Below, piece by piece: positions 5,290 to 59,541 of a stretch of DNA of 64,000 nt (the stretch's first letter is position 1; each line of letters begins with the position of its first letter). The position numbers and the translations under genes are program-made. The notes under the pieces are model-generated. The model did no database searches, was not told where the DNA came from, and was given only the letters and a program-made list of their open reading frames with translations. The stretch is from assembly GCA_024398105.1 (NCBI GenBank), contig JAKSJP010000004.1, positions 62,001 to 126,000 of the forward strand, read 5' to 3'. The DNA comes from Bacteroidales bacterium. Lineage in GTDB: Bacteria; Bacteroidota; Bacteroidia; Bacteroidales; UBA932.

Positions 5290-6090
5290 CTAGCAATGCC
5301 AGTCTGCATCGCCGAAGTCAGCCTCACATTTCACTCTGACAAGACCTGTCTGGTCGTTCCATTCAACGATCGCATCGATGAAACCGAGACCCTTCTGGTT
5401 GTAGTGGGCGACGATAGTGTCTGTGTACTCATCGCTTGAAGCGGCATTTGAATATTCTACATAGCTGCCGTTGAAAGTCGCAAGGATGCCGCCGAAGAGC
5501 TGGTCAAGCTCGTAGCTGACCTTGACAGACTGTACCTGGCAATCCTTTGCGAGCCAGTCGATGTTCACGAGGACTACATCGGTAGAAGGTCCTGCCATCA
5601 CTCTCCATGAACCCTCTGATCCGTCAAGGGCTGAGGTTCCGGTGATCCATGCATAGTCTGTCTTGTTCCATTTGTTCCAGAAACTTGCACCTGAGACCTT
5701 GATCTCCCAGTCGACATGGTCCTTGCGTATGACGGTGCCGTTGATGCTGACCTCGTAGGAAGAAAGACCTTCGGTCACGATGACTGACCATGTCCAGGTC
5801 TTGCCGTCCTTGACCGGAGTAACGTTCGATGCGAGCTCGAAGCCGTGGACAGGGATGTTGATGATCGTCTCGTAGATCTTGTTCCAGTTCTCGAGCATCT
5901 GCTCGATGTAGGCGTTGTAGTTGAATGCTGGATCGACGTCGGCCTTTGTGACAGCCTTTTCAGGCATCTTGATCTTGATTGTCTCCACTGATGGAAGAAC
6001 GGGCGCATTGCCGTTGTCCTCCTTCTCACATGAGGTGAATGTCATTGCGGCGAGCAATGCTGAAGCCGCGAGAATCAGAAATTTTTTCAT
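5290..6090 (-). CDS. Lipoprotein of unknown function
   Basis: 266 residues beginning MKKFLILAASALLAAMTFTSC, a signal peptide with lipobox ending at a Cys, followed by acidic residues (EKED). The longer reading frame upstream has no signal and is not used. The mature part looks beta-rich, with many Trp and Thr residues and a repeated pattern of about 40-residue strands, but I recognise no catalytic motif. It is convergent with xylB and lies 164 bases from the end of the GH43/symporter operon. Surface exposure is plausible; function unknown. Confidence 0.8.
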   Translation of the reverse strand: MKKFLILAASALLAAMTFTSCEKEDNGNAPVLPSVETIKIKMPEKAVTKADVDPAFNYNAYIEQMLENWNKIYETIINIPVHGFELASNVTPVKDGKTWTWSVIVTEGLSSYEVSINGTVIRKDHVDWEIKVSGASFWNKWNKTDYAWITGTSALDGSEGSWRVMAGPSTDVVLVNIDWLAKDCQVQSVKVSYELDQLFGGILATFNGSYVEYSNAASSDEYTDTIVAHYNQKGLGFIDAIVEWNDQTGLVRVKCEADFGDADWHC

Positions 6091-33039: not shown

Positions 33040-33048
33040 AATATAATA

Positions 33049-33168
33049 CTTCTTCCATCCGGACTTTACCGTCGGTGCCGTAGTTTCAACGGCTCAACCC
33101 TTGTGGAAGAACGCCACAGAGGGCTCGCGGACTATACCGCCGGTTGGGAATTGCACCCGACCCTGAAG
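33049..33168 (-). ncRNA. FMN riboswitch (RFN element)
   Basis: Read on the minus strand, the conserved blocks appear in order: CTTCAGGGTCGGGTGCAATT, CCCAACCGGCGGTATAGTCC, GCGAGCCC, then after a variable stem GTTGAAACTACGGCACCGAC and GGTAAAGTCCGGATGGAAGA. These match the RFN consensus almost base for base, with P1 formed by CTTC and GAAG. The 3' P1 strand is part of the purine-rich ribosome-binding region ten bases before the TonB-receptor ATG, so FMN binding would hide the ribosome site (translational repression). Confidence 0.94.
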
Positions 33169-33200
33169 TTTATTGTTTTGCAGATTAATGATCTGCGCTG

Positions 33201-36942: not shown

Positions 36943-36944
36943 CA

Positions 36945-37341
36945 GGTGGAGATGGGCGGACTCGAACCGCCGTCCAAACAACGCACCAAACAGCTTTCTA
37001 CACGCTTATCCTGTCTTTGGTTGTCGGCGCATGGCTGCCGATAGGAAGGCTACCATGAGCTTATCAGTTGAATCTTAGCAGACCTTAACTGAGTCTGGTC
37101 TGAGCATCCTGCTTGGATGATACCCCGTGCTCGGCGCATAGCAGGCTTAAAGTCCGCGGGATACTCGTCGGCGCTGCAGCCTTGGCAGCGCGGATTAAGC
37201 TAATGGACTTGGTCGATTAGGCAGCGAGTGCATAGTTGTTGTTGCCAACTGAATTTTTGAGGATCGGGATTAACGGGCCGGCCCACAGCGCCCGACGTGC
37301 TTACTGTCCGACATCGATGCTGTCAAAACCAAAACATCCCC
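36945..37341 (-). ncRNA. ssrA: Transfer-messenger RNA (tmRNA)
   Basis: The 5' end GGGGATGTTTTGGTTTTGAC and the 3' T-arm GGCGGTTCGAGTCCGCCCAT are diagnostic; GGGGAUG pairs with CAUCUCC to form the acceptor stem. The internal frame reads GGC AAC AAC AAC TAT GCA CTC GCT GCC TAA, giving tag GNNNYALAA, close to known Bacteroidota tags. It rescues stalled ribosomes. The genomic 3' end is ACCT, so the final A of CCA would be added after transcription. A TATCTTTG box lies at 37361-37354 on the minus strand. Confidence 0.96.
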
Positions 37342-42992: not shown

Positions 42993-44069
42993 ATGAACAC
43001 AAAAAAGATTCTCGCATTTGCTGCTGCAGTCGCAGTGTCATGTGCACTGTGCTCAGCGCAGACAACTCAGGTCCAGGTCATCGAGAACGGTGGTACCGGT
43101 CCTTACAAGTCAGTCGCTGTCGGAGACGAAAGTCTTCCTACACACATCATCTATCGTCCTCAGAACCTTGAGGCAGCCGTGGCACAGAACGGAGGAAAGC
43201 TTCCTGTCATCGTCTATGCAAACGGTGCATGTGTGAACAACAGCCTTGAGATGAGCCGCCTCCTCAGCGAGGTCGCTTCATACGGCTATGTCATCCTCGC
43301 CATCGGACCTTACGAGGAGTATTCAGACGAGAAATTCTACAACCAGTGGAAGGGTGTCGTAAAGGGTTCATATCCTTCGACAAAGGAAGTGCTCGTAATG
43401 GGTAACGGAGAGAGAGTCTTCGCCTATACAGCCGAGGAGAGAGAGGCTCAGAGATTGGAAAGAGAGGCAGCACGTGCTGCTGCAGCCGCTGCGGCAAAGA
43501 AGGCTCCTAAGAAGAACGCCGCTCCTGCACCTGCTCCATTCCGCACATATCCTAAGCAGATGCTCGAGGCTATCGACTGGATCACTGACCAGGCTGCTAC
43601 AAAGACCAGCGAGTACTACCACATGGTAGATCTCGACAAGATTGCTGCCATGGGCCAGTCTTGCGGTGGCGCACAGACCCTCGCAGTCGCTCATGACCCA
43701 AGAATCAAGACCTGCGTCATGCTCAACACCGGTATCGGTGAAAACTCCATGCAGGGCGTAGACAAGAACTGCCTTGAGAGCCTCCATACTCCTATGTTCT
43801 ATATGATCGGCGGTCCTGTGGACATCGCTTACAAGAACGCGCAGGGTGACTATGACAACATCAAGGACCTTCCTATCGTCATGGCTAACTCCCTCGACGG
43901 CCACTCAGGTACCTACTACGAGAAGAACGGCGGTCCTTACGCTGTCGCTGCCCGCAAGTGGCTCGACTGGCAGCTCAAGGGCAAGGTGGGAGAGTCTGCA
44001 ATGTTCCTCGACGACGAGTACGAGGCTAAGTTCTACCCGGCTTGGACCTTCGTAAGGAAGAACTGGTAA
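42993..44069 (+). CDS. Secreted alpha/beta-hydrolase, dienelactone-hydrolase/PETase-like fold
   Basis: 358 residues; MNTKKILAFAAAVAVSCALCSAQ is a Sec signal. LPVIVYANGACVNN is the oxyanion-side strand, and the nucleophile Ser lies in MGQSCGGAQT; His is in DGHSGTYYEKNGG and an Asp in GGPVDIAY. An Ala/Lys-rich charged insert (EREAARAAAAAAAKKAPKKN) near residues 150-175 is unusual and may be a flexible loop. It is probably an esterase on an unknown substrate. It ends 26 bases before the first palindrome of repeat element A, whose first hairpin could be its terminator. Confidence 0.83.
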   Translation: MNTKKILAFAAAVAVSCALCSAQTTQVQVIENGGTGPYKSVAVGDESLPTHIIYRPQNLEAAVAQNGGKLPVIVYANGACVNNSLEMSRLLSEVASYGYVILAIGPYEEYSDEKFYNQWKGVVKGSYPSTKEVLVMGNGERVFAYTAEEREAQRLEREAARAAAAAAAKKAPKKNAAPAPAPFRTYPKQMLEAIDWITDQAATKTSEYYHMVDLDKIAAMGQSCGGAQTLAVAHDPRIKTCVMLNTGIGENSMQGVDKNCLESLHTPMFYMIGGPVDIAYKNAQGDYDNIKDLPIVMANSLDGHSGTYYEKNGGPYAVAARKWLDWQLKGKVGESAMFLDDEYEAKFYPAWTFVRKNW

Positions 44070-44094
44070 GCTTCTGACAGACAGAAAAGCTAGC

Positions 44095-44213
44095 GACCTA
44101 GGTCGGCTGAAAATGCCGTGACCTAGGTCGCTTTGTTTTTGTAATAAACTGTATATCAGTATGTTCTGTATTCTGGGTGACCTAGGTCGGGCACGTTTCG
44201 TCTGACCTAGGTC
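44095..44213. repeat. Tetra-palindrome element, copy A
   Basis: Four exact GACCTAGGTC palindromes at 44095, 44120, 44179 and 44204, spaced 25, 59 and 25 bases. Copies 1 and 2 with flanks form a 13-plus-3 base-pair hairpin (AGC...GGC / GCC...GCT) followed by CTTTGTTTTTG. The middle spacer holds a small ACTG/CAGT hairpin. Copy B at 59194-59312 has the same spacing. It lies between two convergent genes. Confidence 0.9.
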
Positions 44214-48771: not shown

Positions 48772-48787
48772 ATGTTCCTGTCTGCAA

Positions 48788-49146
48788 ATGCCGAGACCTG
48801 GTGCGCTGCTGCGCCGCCGGTGCTGTCAGGAAGGCTGTTGTTGCACCAGGTGTCAATGAAATGCCGAGACCTGGTGCGCTGCTGCGCCGCCGGTGCTGTC
48901 AGGAAGGCTGTTGTTGCACCAGGTGTCAATGAAATGCCGAGACCTGGTGCGCTGCTGCGCCGCCGGTGCTGTTAGGAAGGCTGTTGTTGCACCAGGTGTC
49001 AGTGGAATGCCGAGACCTGGTGCGCTGCTGCGCCGCCGGTGCTGTCAGGGAGGCTGTTGTTGCACCAGGTGTCAATGAAATGCCGAGACCTGGTGCGCTG
49101 CTGCACCGCCGGTGCTGTCAGGAAGGCTGTTGTTGCACCAGGTCTC
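48788..49146. repeat. Five tandem 73-base repeats
   Basis: Units start at 48788, 48861, 48934, 49007 and 49080, an exact 73-base period with only a few substitutions; the last unit lacks the spacer GTCAATGAA. Each unit is bounded by inverted ACCTGGTGC and GCACCAGGT, so each can fold into a hairpin of about 55-60 bases with an inner GCGC-TGCT-GCGC loop. The last unit pairs over 12 bases (GAGACCTGGTGC/GCACCAGGTCTC). Confidence 0.93.
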
Positions 49147-49171
49147 TGACATGAACGCCTCAGCCACCGAC

Positions 49172-49241
49172 AGACAGGTCTCAAAAGTAAGGGCGACCAT
49201 TTTCCCAAGTTCCTTGGGAGCCCGTCTTTTGAGACCTGTCT
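49172..49241 (-). repeat. Long hairpin S2, inverted relative of S1
   Basis: Perfect 16-base outer stem (AGACAGGTCTCAAAAG with CTTTTGAGACCTGTCT), inner GGGC/GCCC and TCCCAAG-TTC-CTTGGGA. On the minus strand the core (49223-49190) begins GGGCTCCCAA and ends GGTCGCCCT, the same ends and the same 34-base length as the S1 core. Confidence 0.87.
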
Positions 49242-49281
49242 GTTGCTAACAGTAGTTCTGTCTGTTGCTAACAGTAGTTCT
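49238..49281 (+). repeat. Two tandem 22-base repeats
   Basis: GTCTGTTGCTAACAGTAGTT plus CT occurs twice in a row; each has a small hairpin CTGTT-GCT-AACAG. The array ends 18 bases before the greA stop codon. Confidence 0.9.
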
Positions 49282-49298
49282 GTCTGCGAGAGATCTGG

Positions 49299-52002: not shown

Positions 52003-53529
52003 TTATTTCAATACATCAGGTTTCACTGGTATTCTTCCTGGGTCTTCCGCTGCGCAGAGGACCAGCCATGCTGTGATGCATGCGTCGATCCTGAGGTCCT
52101 CGAGAGACAGACGCTCGAAGGTGTCCATGATCGTGTGGTAGGTCCTGTCGTACTCAAGCTCATCCTGGATGAACTGATATGCAGGCAGGCCCAGTCGATC
52201 GAAGGTGACATGGTCAGTAGAACCTGTGGTCCTAGGACTGAGGACGTTGAATCCGAGAGATTCTACAGGTCCCATCCATGCCTTGAAGAACGGAACTGCC
52301 ATGTCGTTCCTCTCAAGATGGATGCCACGGAAACGGCCTGAACCGTTGTCCATGTTGAGGTAGAGCGCGAACTTGTCATAGCCTGGGAGCTTCTGCTTGT
52401 CGGCCTTCCTGTAGAGGTTGTTCTCAGCATATCCTGCTGATCCGTAGAGTCCCTGCTCCTCACCGCCCCAGAGAGCGAGACGGATGGTACGCTTCGGCTG
52501 GTAGCCGATGGCCTTGAGGATACGCATAGCCTCCATCATTACTATACATCCCGATGCGTTGTCTGCACCGCCGGTACCTCCATGCCATGAATCCAGATGT
52601 GCTCCGATCATGACGATCTCATCCTTGAGCTGAGGATCGGTACCTGGAATCTCTGCCATGACATTGTTGATCTTCTGGTTGTCAGTGAACCTGTTCTTCA
52701 GCTCGACCTCCATCCTGACCTTTTCGCCTCTCTCGATAAGGCGGACCATACGTCCATGGTCCTCGATAGGCATGATGATCTCAGGAATCGGCTCCGGGTC
52801 TCCGGCCTTATATGACACGCCTGTGGCAGAAGGAACGTTGAACGAACCGCGTCCCGTCACTACGCATATAGGCTTCTCATTCTTGATGAACTCAGCCATC
52901 GCTCTCTGGAGAGCCTGGCTTGGTCCGGTCCTGCGGTAGGTCGACCTAGGTCGGATCTCGGCACGGCTGTCCGTCGCATATCTTTCAAGCTCCTCGTCGG
53001 TAAGCCTGCTGGCCAAAGGCTCGAAGCTCATGGTATATGTCTGGGTCTCAGGCATGAGGACTATCTTCCCCTTGAGCTTGCCCTTGTATTCCTTCAGGTC
53101 GCTCTCCTCGAGCGGGTCGAACAGCACACATTCAGCTTCCTGCAGGCCCTTGGTGCTTCCTGACCACGCCTTCGGATTGACAGAGAATGCACAGTAGTAT
53201 GGTGCTGTCATGGCGGCGTAGGTCTTCTCAACGTCCCATCCACCCTTTGCGAAGTCGCATGCGTATTCAGCGCGTGGGTCGGACAGACCGAATTCCTCGA
53301 GCTTGCTGATCACGAGGCCCTCGGCACGAAGCTTCATCTGAGATGCGGCGAGACGCGATCCGAGAAGGTCTGTCATGAACCTTGAGAGGTCGTAGATCTG
53401 GGAATTGTTGAAAGCTTCCTGCTTGACTTTGTAGGCCAGTTCTTCACTTGGACATACCTGTGCGCTGAGGCTGGTCGCGAAGAATGCTGCCATTGCGGCG
53501 GAGATAATGGTTCTTCTTGTATTCATCAT
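52003..53529 (-). CDS. M28-family zinc peptidase, secreted
   Basis: 508 residues, signal peptide ending near SLSAQ. The M28 metal ligands are visible: His and Asp in GAHLDSWHGGTGGADNASG, the Glu pair in WGGEEQGLYGS, an Asp in MDNGSGRF and the last His in STDHVTFDRLG. A PA-type insert lies at about 130-260. Related enzymes are aminopeptidases or carboxypeptidase Q-like dipeptidases. It is the first gene of an operon with the zinc metallopeptidase. A single GACCTAGGTC at 52943-52952 falls in its coding sequence. Confidence 0.9.
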   Translation of the reverse strand: MMNTRRTIISAAMAAFFATSLSAQVCPSEELAYKVKQEAFNNSQIYDLSRFMTDLLGSRLAASQMKLRAEGLVISKLEEFGLSDPRAEYACDFAKGGWDVEKTYAAMTAPYYCAFSVNPKAWSGSTKGLQEAECVLFDPLEESDLKEYKGKLKGKIVLMPETQTYTMSFEPLASRLTDEELERYATDSRAEIRPRSTYRRTGPSQALQRAMAEFIKNEKPICVVTGRGSFNVPSATGVSYKAGDPEPIPEIIMPIEDHGRMVRLIERGEKVRMEVELKNRFTDNQKINNVMAEIPGTDPQLKDEIVMIGAHLDSWHGGTGGADNASGCIVMMEAMRILKAIGYQPKRTIRLALWGGEEQGLYGSAGYAENNLYRKADKQKLPGYDKFALYLNMDNGSGRFRGIHLERNDMAVPFFKAWMGPVESLGFNVLSPRTTGSTDHVTFDRLGLPAYQFIQDELEYDRTYHTIMDTFERLSLEDLRIDACITAWLVLCAAEDPGRIPVKPDVLK

Positions 53530-57480: not shown

Positions 57481-59157
57481 ATGATGGAAGAGAACAACAG
57501 CAACATCCAGGAGCCAAGGAAGCTCAATTTCCTTGAGGAGATCATCGAGGCAGACCTTGCAGAGGGCAAGGTTGACAGCGTAATGACCCGTTTCCCTCCT
57601 GAGCCGAACGGATATCTGCATCTTGGACATGCCAAGAGCATCTGTATAAATTTCGGCCTTGCCCAGAAATACGGCGGCAAGACCAACCTTCGCTTTGACG
57701 ACACCAACCCTACCAAGGAGGACACCGAGTATGTAGACTCTATCAAGGAGGACATCAAGTGGCTCGGCTTCGACTGGGAGAACGAGTTCTATGCATCTGA
57801 CTATTTCGACCAGCTCTATGACTGGGCGGAGCAGATGATCAAGGAGGGACTCGCATATGTCGATGACCAGACCCAGGAGGAGATCAGCAAGGGACGTGGT
57901 TCAGTCGACAAGCCAGGTGTCGAGAGTCCTTACAGGAACCGCAGCGTGGAGGAGAACCTCCAGCTCTTCCGTGACATGAAAGCCGGCAAGTATGCCGACG
58001 GTGAGAAGGTACTCCGCGCCAAGATCGACATGGCACATCCTAACATGATGTTCCGTGACCCTCTCCTTTACCGTATCAAGCATGCGAACCACCATCGTAC
58101 CGGTGACAAGTGGTGCATCTATCCGATGTACGACTACACCCATGGCCAGTGCGACTCCATCGAGCATATCACCCACTCTATCTGTACTCTCGAGTTCGAC
58201 GTCCACAGACCTCTCTACGACTGGTTCATCAAGACTCTCCGCATCTACCCAAGCCATCAGTATGAGTTCGCGAGACTCAACCTTACATACACTCTCATGT
58301 CTAAGCGCAAGCTCCTCGAGCTCGTGCAGAAGAACTACGTAAGCGGCTGGGACGACCCTCGTATGCCTACGCTCTGCGGTGTCCGCAGAAGAGGTTATCC
58401 TGCAGCTGCGCTCAGGATGTTCTGCGAGAAGATCGGCGTCTCAAAGCGTGACCAGCTGATGGACATCCAGCTCCTCGAGTGGTGCGTACGCCAGGAGCTC
58501 AACGCGAAGTCAAACCGCTACATGGTAGTCCAGGATCCGATCAAGGTGACCCTCACCAACTGGGAGCCAGGAAAGGTAGAATGGTTCGACTGCCCGCTCA
58601 ACCCGGCTGAGCCGGAGGGTGCAACCAGAAAGGTTCCATTCACAGGTGAGCTTCTCATCGACAGGGCTGACTTCATGGAGGATGCTCCTAAGAAGTTCTT
58701 CCGCCTCAAGCCGGACGGAGAGGTGCGTCTCAAGTACACCTACATCATCAAGTGCAACGAGGTGATCAAGGATGCCGAGGGCAACGTGGTTGAGCTCAAG
58801 TGTACCTATGATCCATCAACTCACCCTGTTACAGGTGAGTGGCGTTCAGTCAAGGGTACCATCCATTGGGTATCGACCGAGCATGCAAAGCCTATCGAGC
58901 TCAGGAACTACGACCGTCTCTTCACCGAGGCTGACATGAACTCCATCCCTGCCGACAGGGACTACAAGGAGTTCCTCAACCCTGAGTCGCTCGTCGTCTC
59001 TACAGCATATGCTGAGCCAGCTCTCATCGAGGACAAGAGCGGCATCGCCGTTCAGTTCGAGAGAACCGGTTACTACATCATCGACAAGGACAGCACCGCC
59101 GAGAAGGTCGTCTTCAACAAGACCACCTCGCTCAAGGACTCTTACAGACCGGAATAA
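57481..59157 (+). CDS. glnS: Glutaminyl-tRNA synthetase
   Basis: 558 residues. Class I signatures: FPPEPNGYLHLGHAKS (HIGH variant HLGH) and LMSKRKLLELV (KMSKS variant); FDDTNPTKED is the glutaminyl-type marker. The C-terminal anticodon-binding beta-barrels occupy about 345-558. It charges tRNA-Gln directly, so Gln-tRNA is not made only through the amidotransferase route here. It is monocistronic, with its own -7 box, and is followed by repeat element B. Confidence 0.96.
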   Translation: MMEENNSNIQEPRKLNFLEEIIEADLAEGKVDSVMTRFPPEPNGYLHLGHAKSICINFGLAQKYGGKTNLRFDDTNPTKEDTEYVDSIKEDIKWLGFDWENEFYASDYFDQLYDWAEQMIKEGLAYVDDQTQEEISKGRGSVDKPGVESPYRNRSVEENLQLFRDMKAGKYADGEKVLRAKIDMAHPNMMFRDPLLYRIKHANHHRTGDKWCIYPMYDYTHGQCDSIEHITHSICTLEFDVHRPLYDWFIKTLRIYPSHQYEFARLNLTYTLMSKRKLLELVQKNYVSGWDDPRMPTLCGVRRRGYPAAALRMFCEKIGVSKRDQLMDIQLLEWCVRQELNAKSNRYMVVQDPIKVTLTNWEPGKVEWFDCPLNPAEPEGATRKVPFTGELLIDRADFMEDAPKKFFRLKPDGEVRLKYTYIIKCNEVIKDAEGNVVELKCTYDPSTHPVTGEWRSVKGTIHWVSTEHAKPIELRNYDRLFTEADMNSIPADRDYKEFLNPESLVVSTAYAEPALIEDKSGIAVQFERTGYYIIDKDSTAEKVVFNKTTSLKDSYRPE

Positions 59158-59541
59158 TCATATACTTCGGGAAATCTGCTGATATATGCTAGCGACCTAG
59201 GTCACCTGAAAAGGCCCCGACCTAGGTCACTTTCTTTTGGTATGTATCTGAAATTCAAGCAGATAAAAAATCTGCATGACCTAGGTCACCCATCTTTCGT
59301 CCGACCTAGGTCACCGGACGGTTCCCCGAAGGGACCGAAGACATAAGGGGCGACCTCAGCCGCAGCAGACAAGTCATGAGCGTAGCGAATGACGCAGGAT
59401 GCGAGAATGGACGAGCCCCGTTGCCTTCAGCCCCTTCGGTAGGGGGCGTCGGGCGGCTGTCCCTCTGGGGGACGACGACCGCCTGTCAGGCTTTGGGCGT
59501 CTGGCGGTCTGTTCCTCTGGGGGACGTCGGTCGACGGCCTG
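59158..59541. other. 384-base non-coding interval: element B and GC-rich repeats
   Basis: Between the convergent glnS and nth genes. The left third is the tetra-palindrome element B; the right part is GC-rich (CCTCTGGGGGACG twice) with hairpins such as GGTTCCCCGAAGGGACC and two imperfect repeats of about 51 bases. No gene is supported. Confidence 0.8.
59194..59312. repeat. Tetra-palindrome element, copy B
   Basis: GACCTAGGTC at 59194, 59219, 59278 and 59303, spaced 25, 59 and 25, identical to copy A. The 15-base spacers share CTGAAAA and GCC (first) and CA plus TTTCGTC (last) with A, while the 49-base middle differs but again holds a hairpin (GCAGAT-AAAAA-ATCTGC). Copies 1 and 2 are followed by CTTTCTTTTGG. 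Confidence 0.9.

Follow-up and report, generated by a model that had tools for sequence, protein, structure and literature searches.

Four regularly spaced palindromes in a Bacteroidales genome as one copy of a dispersed REPIN-like repeat, probably mobilized by a RAYT-like transposase

What kind of element is built from four exact copies of the 10-base palindrome GACCTAGGTC within 119 bases of a Bacteroidales genome? The window, a stretch of 64,000 nucleotides from contig JAKSJP010000004.1 (assembly GCA_024398105.1), was analysed together with the rest of the genome and with related genomes. Exact matching placed the palindromes at 44095, 44120, 44179 and 44204, reproducing all coordinates of the preliminary description of this locus, and the register of 25, 59 and 25 bases (start-to-start distances), which that description saw return 15 kb away, was exact again at 59194, 59219, 59278 and 59303. 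It had also held that four such palindromes cannot be a chance occurrence, and had proposed a genome-wide search for pairs at 25-base spacing. When up to one mismatch was allowed, GACCTAGGTC had 11 matches in the window, more than in any of 100 dinucleotide shuffles (mean 1.86, maximum 5). Genome-wide (2.43 Mb, 48 contigs), 72 exact sites were found versus 8 for a reversed-pattern control, and the proposed search returned 28 exact pairs versus none. A chance origin of the set was rejected on the shuffle, pair and reversed-pattern controls. The features concerned have the following window coordinates.

44095 to 44213, no strand assigned: element A, the whole REPIN-like unit (119 bp), laid out as arm-15-arm-49-arm-15-arm and dyad symmetric
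44095 to 44129, no strand assigned: left hairpin of element A, a 10-bp stem of GACCTAGGTC with a 15-nt loop (-11.5 kcal/mol as DNA, z -6.7)
44130 to 44178, no strand assigned: linker of element A, 49 nt, variable among copies
44179 to 44213, no strand assigned: right hairpin of element A, a 10-bp stem with a 15-nt loop (-10.9 kcal/mol as DNA, z -4.9)
59194 to 59312, no strand assigned: element B, a second copy in the register of A, between converging ORFs (ends at 59157, plus, and 59542, minus)
52943 to 52952, no strand assigned: an isolated GACCTAGGTC within an ORF, probably matching by chance and not an element

Compared with 200 shuffles, both halves of element A and one half of element B folded better than every one, and the second half of B better than 199. 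The 119-mer of element A can also fold as a single long hairpin (-27.4 kcal/mol, z -8.2). From translations read by eye, the gene to the left of element B presumably encodes a glutaminyl-tRNA synthetase and that to its right an endonuclease III. Immediately before the first palindrome, GCTAGC was observed in three of 15 elements (window 44089-44094 and 59188-59193, and L017:3995-4000); this further palindrome containing CTAG may mark a shared edge or reflect a target preference.

The four palindromes make up a single copy of a short dispersed repeat, of which 15 elements were spread over 12 contigs of the genome. Among the matches listed, at least 64 of the 72 GACCTAGGTC sites fell in these elements and at least seven stood alone. 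Slightly decayed pairs are few, since tolerating up to three mismatches raised the number of 25-base-spaced pairs only to 31 (control 0). All four arms were exact in 13 of the 15 elements, one carried a single mismatch and one was short of an arm, counts that favour intact elements as these were located through exact pairs. Copies were mostly extragenic, as REPINs are: by rough ORF calls, two of the 15 overlapped an ORF end and one lay inside an ORF. After each element had been oriented to best fit the others, mean pairwise identity among 14 of them was 97% for the arms, 54% for the loops and 48% for the linker, and 53 of their 54 exact arms matched YGACCTAGGTCR; the copy on contig C16 was left out of these counts, an upstream gene (98%) being common to it and the copy on contig C28. 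Two inverted hairpin units with conserved ends are thus separated by a variable spacer of fixed length, which is the composition of a REPIN.

The same regularities can be read in another way. Perfect 10-bp palindromes, arms far better conserved than linker and loops, the near-uniform fit to YGACCTAGGTCR and a fixed spacing in which the second hairpin follows the first at 84 bp, close to eight helical turns, would also suit a row of four duplex sites, of the operator or nucleoid type, bound by a dimeric protein. A nearly palindromic arm, GGACCAGGTCC, in one other lineage (L054) would agree with it as well. The four-site array that the preliminary description had put forward is hence compatible with the data from this species. 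It does not account for the relatives, in which arms are not palindromic and pairing is kept (see below), and we regard it as quite unlikely.

A gene for a putative mobilizing enzyme was found between two of the copies. On contig C23, elements at L016:4001-4175 and 5582-5756, both of them six-palindrome copies and 94% identical over 178 nt, flank an ORF for a RAYT-like protein of 320 aa (P0001; G000:C23:116840-117799, corresponding to L016:4593-5555). The protein carries the motifs SNHAH and AYIPRNAED. Its matches to Pfam Y1_Tnp (E 0.0018, 18.8 bits) and NCBIfam REP_Tyr_transpos (E 0.0019, 18.1 bits) were under the respective cut-offs of 23 and 80. An alignment of 19 sequences of the group showed S66, N67, H68, H70 and Y128 to be invariant, and therefore the HuH metal site and the catalytic tyrosine that characterize RAYT (TnpA-REP) proteins are present; the residue between the histidines was A, C, S, G or F, in most cases not one usually counted as hydrophobic. 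At E<=0.1, Y1_Tnp matched all 19 members (best 1e-5) and REP_Tyr_transpos ten of them (best 6.3e-5). The Y---NP motif of class 2 was absent: most of the 19 read AYIPRNA, with A at the expected P. In the C-terminal part only weak helix-turn-helix (HTH) matches were obtained, HTH_PafC in four of 19 with a best E of 0.015. Alignment with E. coli RayT by hhalign gave a probability of 0.4-0.6% (E 0.1-0.17), the HxH and Y motifs being aligned. A profile search of solved structures returned none at E<=1, and among PHROGs there was one weak match, with none for the second protein queried.

Between the two C23 elements, directly before the RAYT gene, a 117-aa ORF was also observed (L016:4236-4589), possibly a co-transcribed partner. 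A second, distant RAYT-like gene (L025 / L198) has CCACCTACGTCA-type repeats in its own flanks; roughly 175 bp ahead of the match to this gene there is an isolated TTGACCTAGGTCAA palindrome (G000:C12:60328).

Relatives of the RAYT gene, 36-47% identical, were accompanied by the same two-hairpin design with different stem letters. With an alignment as query, 150 RAYT loci were retrieved from named genomes and 80 were kept; the single protein as query on the same contigs gave 20 stretches and no relatives. Titles of the 80 loci named Bacteroidales or Bacteroidia except for two Fibrobacter and one Lachnospiraceae, all three on contigs shorter than 4 kb, and many of them named the rumen or other ruminant stomachs. 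Hairpins with 15-nt loops and at least nine of ten pairs numbered 224 in 77 of the 80 loci versus 14, 18 and 18 in three shuffles; GGT stood at arm positions 7-9 in 178 of the 224 and in none from the shuffles. Two-hairpin elements numbered 69 in 49 loci (shuffles 0; a seventieth, first listed, consisted of N letters), the other 31 loci having none by these criteria. The second hairpin lay preferentially at +75 (43 cases) or -75 (35), with smaller peaks at 62-63 (-62 in 19 cases, +62 in 15) and 73-74 and a median of 0 over offsets, and the linker measured about 40 nt in most relatives' elements versus 49 nt here. Thus the repeats flank a Y1 (RAYT) gene, as REPINs do, in the own genome and in relatives alike. 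In all 47 loci placed on a tree (see below), a hairpin with GGT and at least eight of ten pairs occurred within 1 kb of the gene.

The arms beside the relatives' genes are repeated and have AGGT/ACCT in common. The commonest words were GGGCAAGGTC, which is also the commonest stem, and GGGGAAGGTC. No palindrome occurred among the 59 commonest arm words of the 80 loci, an N-run being left out, which speaks against the binding array. In 29 loci (L034-L062), self-complementary 10-mers were seen twice beside the RAYT gene in three loci and at 25-base spacing in none. What is conserved is therefore the pairing between arms and not the palindrome, since the relatives' arms are non-palindromic yet paired.

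This pairing was followed in one element from each of 34 of the 80 loci, picked for pairing out of 47, a choice that raises the percentage paired: 94% of stem cells paired, and both-side changes were seen in 11 of 20 pairs. Cells changed on both sides numbered 50 versus 10.4 in shuffles, a value reached in none of 500, and when partners were shifted by one to three columns, pairing fell to 31-55%. The inner GGT/ACC was nearly invariant and the outer stem bases covaried. Such preservation of arm-arm pairing by changes on both sides also counts against double-strand sites for a dimer. Pairing across the whole unit (loop-loop 59% and linker-linker 48% of cells) went little beyond shuffles in most measures; its percentage paired was reached by ten of 500 shuffles, and its covariation score was above all 500.

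Taken with the dispersed copies, the RAYT-like transposase between two of them and the architecture in relatives, the covarying stems uphold the suggestion of a REP-like repeat already present in the preliminary description. Element A can very probably be classed with the miniature, non-autonomous mobile elements of REPIN type, most likely copied or moved in trans as single-stranded DNA by the C23 RAYT. Each REP-like unit consists of a 10-bp stem closing a 15-nt loop, and two units are inverted around the 49-nt linker. In the mechanism we propose, a transposase of the RAYT type, with its Y1 domain, would act in trans on these single-stranded hairpins. We infer that the enzyme binds and cuts the hairpins and that the copies spread in this way; single-strand copying or moving would then carry elements to scattered sites. 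The general form of the stem may be written XXXXXAGGTC-N15-GACCTYYYYY, with a variable outer XXXXX and a conserved inner AGGTC. In this species the general stem takes the form of a perfect palindrome, presumably because its outer half here, GACCT, equals the complement of the inner AGGTC.

The distribution of the family was evaluated at several levels. The generic pattern AGGTC-N15-GACCT-N44..64-AGGTC-N15-GACCT was present in 16 of 101 genomes of the same genus, own included (control 0), and in none of 294 other genomes drawn order-wide, of which one belonged to the genus and two more to the family. An exact GACCTAGGTC pair was restricted to two of 398 same-family genomes, own included (one of 397 others). 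An absence of further copies from the genome and its relatives, which would have told against the preliminary description, was not what the searches showed: 15 elements in the own genome and the copies in relatives were found. Viral contigs contained no stretch with an exact pair, and a virus origin was rejected on that count.

Matches to P0001 at E<=1e-10 were obtained in 78 of the 101 same-genus genomes, own included, and the best was at E<=1e-60 in 32. With this last value taken as the line for a close RAYT, a line drawn after seeing the list and applied to partly incomplete genomes, elements occurred in 14 of 32 genomes with a close RAYT versus two of 69 without (p 7e-7), or 13 of 31 versus two of 69 when the own genome was left out (p 2e-6). 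Two genomes (G008, G011) had elements with only distant RAYTs (21-26% identity), and in G011 three GTGYCAGGTC hairpins at 84-base spacing precede its own distant RAYT (24% identical). On a quick tree of 48 transposases, from 47 of the 80 loci plus P0001 on a long branch, the outer five stem bases required 21 changes versus 32.0 when shuffled (48 rows). The two types GGGCA and GGGGA, carried by 14 and nine of the 47 loci, were separated by one change versus 7.3 (23 rows). The stem type was thus shown to follow the transposase tree. This is an association and not an interaction, because common descent of both parts would give the same pattern.

Mobility was considered from the one exact-pair copy in another species (genome G410). 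It was 88% identical to the copy on C28 over a stretch starting 2 nt ahead of the first palindrome and running 1 nt past the last; with laxer settings this match ended 4 nt past the last palindrome, and the match against the C16 copy ended 9 nt past it. Among ORFs of 80 aa or more from the own-genome loci, none matched the 6 kb around the G410 copy (E<=1e-3). A match that stops at the inverted ends, with no neighbouring gene in common, would also be expected of a MITE with long terminal inverted repeats, derived from a conventional DDE insertion sequence. Against this, two copies enclose a gene of the Y1/HxH type, and the arms are exact around a variable interior, with hairpin covariation inside each end, so that this origin appears highly improbable.

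For the preferred REPIN-like element, the evidence of a clean jump is mixed. On the same strand, a near-match of 17 out of 18 letters (E 0.23) stands 12 nt beyond the C28 copy and 119 nt beyond that of G410; it may be chance or the trace of a shared site, counts against a clean jump, and makes descent of both copies from one old site a possibility. The 18-mer concerned, GAAGTAT[CT]TACTTAGTAG, was seen at L020:4131-4148 and L199:406-423 and at no other examined locus (L159 and L199 are the same place in G410). In G410, which is 98% complete, no RAYT relative was detected at E<=1e-6; its copy would consequently be an orphan or relic, or have been acquired by transfer, which argues against a simple dependence on the enzyme. 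A search for empty sites found the neighbours of element A absent in five of five loci and those of element B in 19 of 19 (loci of 19 genomes out of 195 matching, own included), and so there was no syntenic site in the loci examined.

Where copies stand relative to genes bears on a different explanation. Element A begins 25 nt past one stop codon and ends 11 nt ahead of another, its flanking ORFs converging. Of 12 elements among the 15 that could be classified by their neighbours from rough ORF calls, six were convergent, five co-directional and one divergent. The hairpin of palindromes 1 and 2 followed by a T-rich tract, as first described, was confirmed by the fold at 44095 and extends into the flanks.

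44092 to 44141, plus strand: extended left stem of element A, at least 12 bp through flanking bases, then TTTGTTTTTG; terminator-like, 3' of a plus-strand ORF ending at 44069

The host might accordingly maintain the copies as 3'-UTR signals, either transcription terminators or hairpins at mRNA 3' ends, the transposase link being secondary. The convergent settings, the stem outgrowing the palindrome (RNA fold z -6.2) and the single terminator-like match at A, where shuffles gave a mean of 0.4 (sd 0.6), fit this possibility. As an account of all copies, the terminator idea of the preliminary description did not hold: from reading the sequences, a T tract follows the hairpin in only some of the 15, and the flanks of element B add no stem pairs. 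Moreover, GACCTAGGTC is nearly species-specific, the same design surrounds the RAYT genes of relatives, and REPs elsewhere likewise lie mostly 3' of genes, according to the accessible portions of PMC3733652. Host-maintained terminators are thus an unlikely primary explanation. The idea does suit the 44095 copy, and terminator activity at element A is plausible as a by-product of the mobile repeat; a terminator or mRNA-end role may arise likewise wherever a copy lies directly 3' of a gene. A search of the window against Rfam at gathering thresholds gave no RNA family at element A, and a known RNA family was ruled out on this basis. The search did report an FMN riboswitch (33043-33174) and a tmRNA (36944-37341), both on the minus strand.

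A second set of hairpins was seen in the same window.

48786 to 49143, no strand assigned: 4.9 tandem copies of a 73-bp unit with hairpins GCACCAGGTG-N15-GACCTGGTGC, which form a further hairpin family of similar general type

These hairpins resemble a second REPIN-type family. Six of the 19 own-genome matches to the generic pattern belong to a second family with stem GCACCAGGTC. G000:C6:225-475 and contig C34, close to its end, also have arrays with that stem. A hybrid hairpin (L012; G000:C5:34486-34520) has one arm GACCTAGGTC and the other GACCTGGTGC, and at 49171-49286 of the window an inverted repeat AGACAGGTCTCAAAAG...CTTTTGAGACCTGTCT is followed by a 22-bp direct repeat.

Comparison with known systems places these repeats close to REPINs. 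According to the parts of the sources available to us, the REPINs and RAYT/TnpA-REP REPtrons of Pseudomonas fluorescens SBW25 and E. coli share with the present elements two inverted, hairpin-capable palindromic units, whose ends are conserved and whose spacer is less so, as well as extragenic dispersal and the placement of copies next to a gene for a Y1 tyrosine transposase (PMC3116915, PMC8266576). A repeat family proper to each transposase is a further likeness (PMC6006769, in part). The REP superfamilies described in the portions of PMC3733652 at hand carry GTAG or CGTC tags and come mainly from Proteobacteria. In contrast, the GTAG foot is absent here: inspection of 15 elements by eye for GT[AG]G showed no constant GTRG beside the arms. 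The conserved tag is instead AGGTC...GACCT beside the 15-nt loop, and the stem word itself is a perfect palindrome in this species. At about 300-320 aa, and in their long C-terminal part, the transposases also differ from E. coli RayT (165 aa, solved as 4ER8). Because of the missing GTAG tag and the protein scores under RAYT cut-offs, the system is considered a variant of REPIN/RAYT and not a described REP family. The titles and abstracts found, in a search whose scope left most subscription journals outside, held no description of this repeat family.

Among described groups, TnpA-Y1 subclass 2.6 (Bertels group 5) is the nearest description in the available parts of PMC6006769, a comparison made by description since the letters of its structures are not given there. 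It is mostly from Bacteroidetes, with flanking atypical secondary structures without GTAG and copies elsewhere in the genome, but its median length is 179 aa with YIH[QN]NP, versus about 300-320 aa and AYIPRNAxD here. TIRYTs with their TIRtrons and TnpA-Y1 subclass 2.1 are similar as Y1 proteins flanked by inverted repeats, some of them dimers or double palindromes (PMC3733652, PMC6006769, both in part). Subclass 2.1 has a C-terminal HTH-like part; it differs by a median of 238 aa and is, in the accessible text of PMC6006769, reported without REP-like repeats. By eye, the TIR motif GGGG[AT][CG]A[CG] was unmatched by the commonest arms GGGCAAGGTC and GGGGAAGGTC.

One extension of the REPIN-like mechanism concerns the long C-terminal part. 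Recognition could be two-fold, the Y1 domain reading the single-stranded hairpin and a C-terminal HTH part the duplex stem word, in a separate RAYT branch of gut Bacteroidales; we consider this rather improbable. If true, each copy could be both a transposition substrate and a double-strand binding or regulatory site, and the perfect-palindrome stem could be held by a protein dimer.

The elements and their transposases provide a large, tag-free transposase-repeat set in Bacteroidales, with a strict register and visible covariation. As a natural series, they lend themselves to studying joint change in a single-strand transposase and its hairpin. They also illustrate how four conspicuous palindromes can come to look like a 'binding array', once half of a stem has turned into the complement of its other half.
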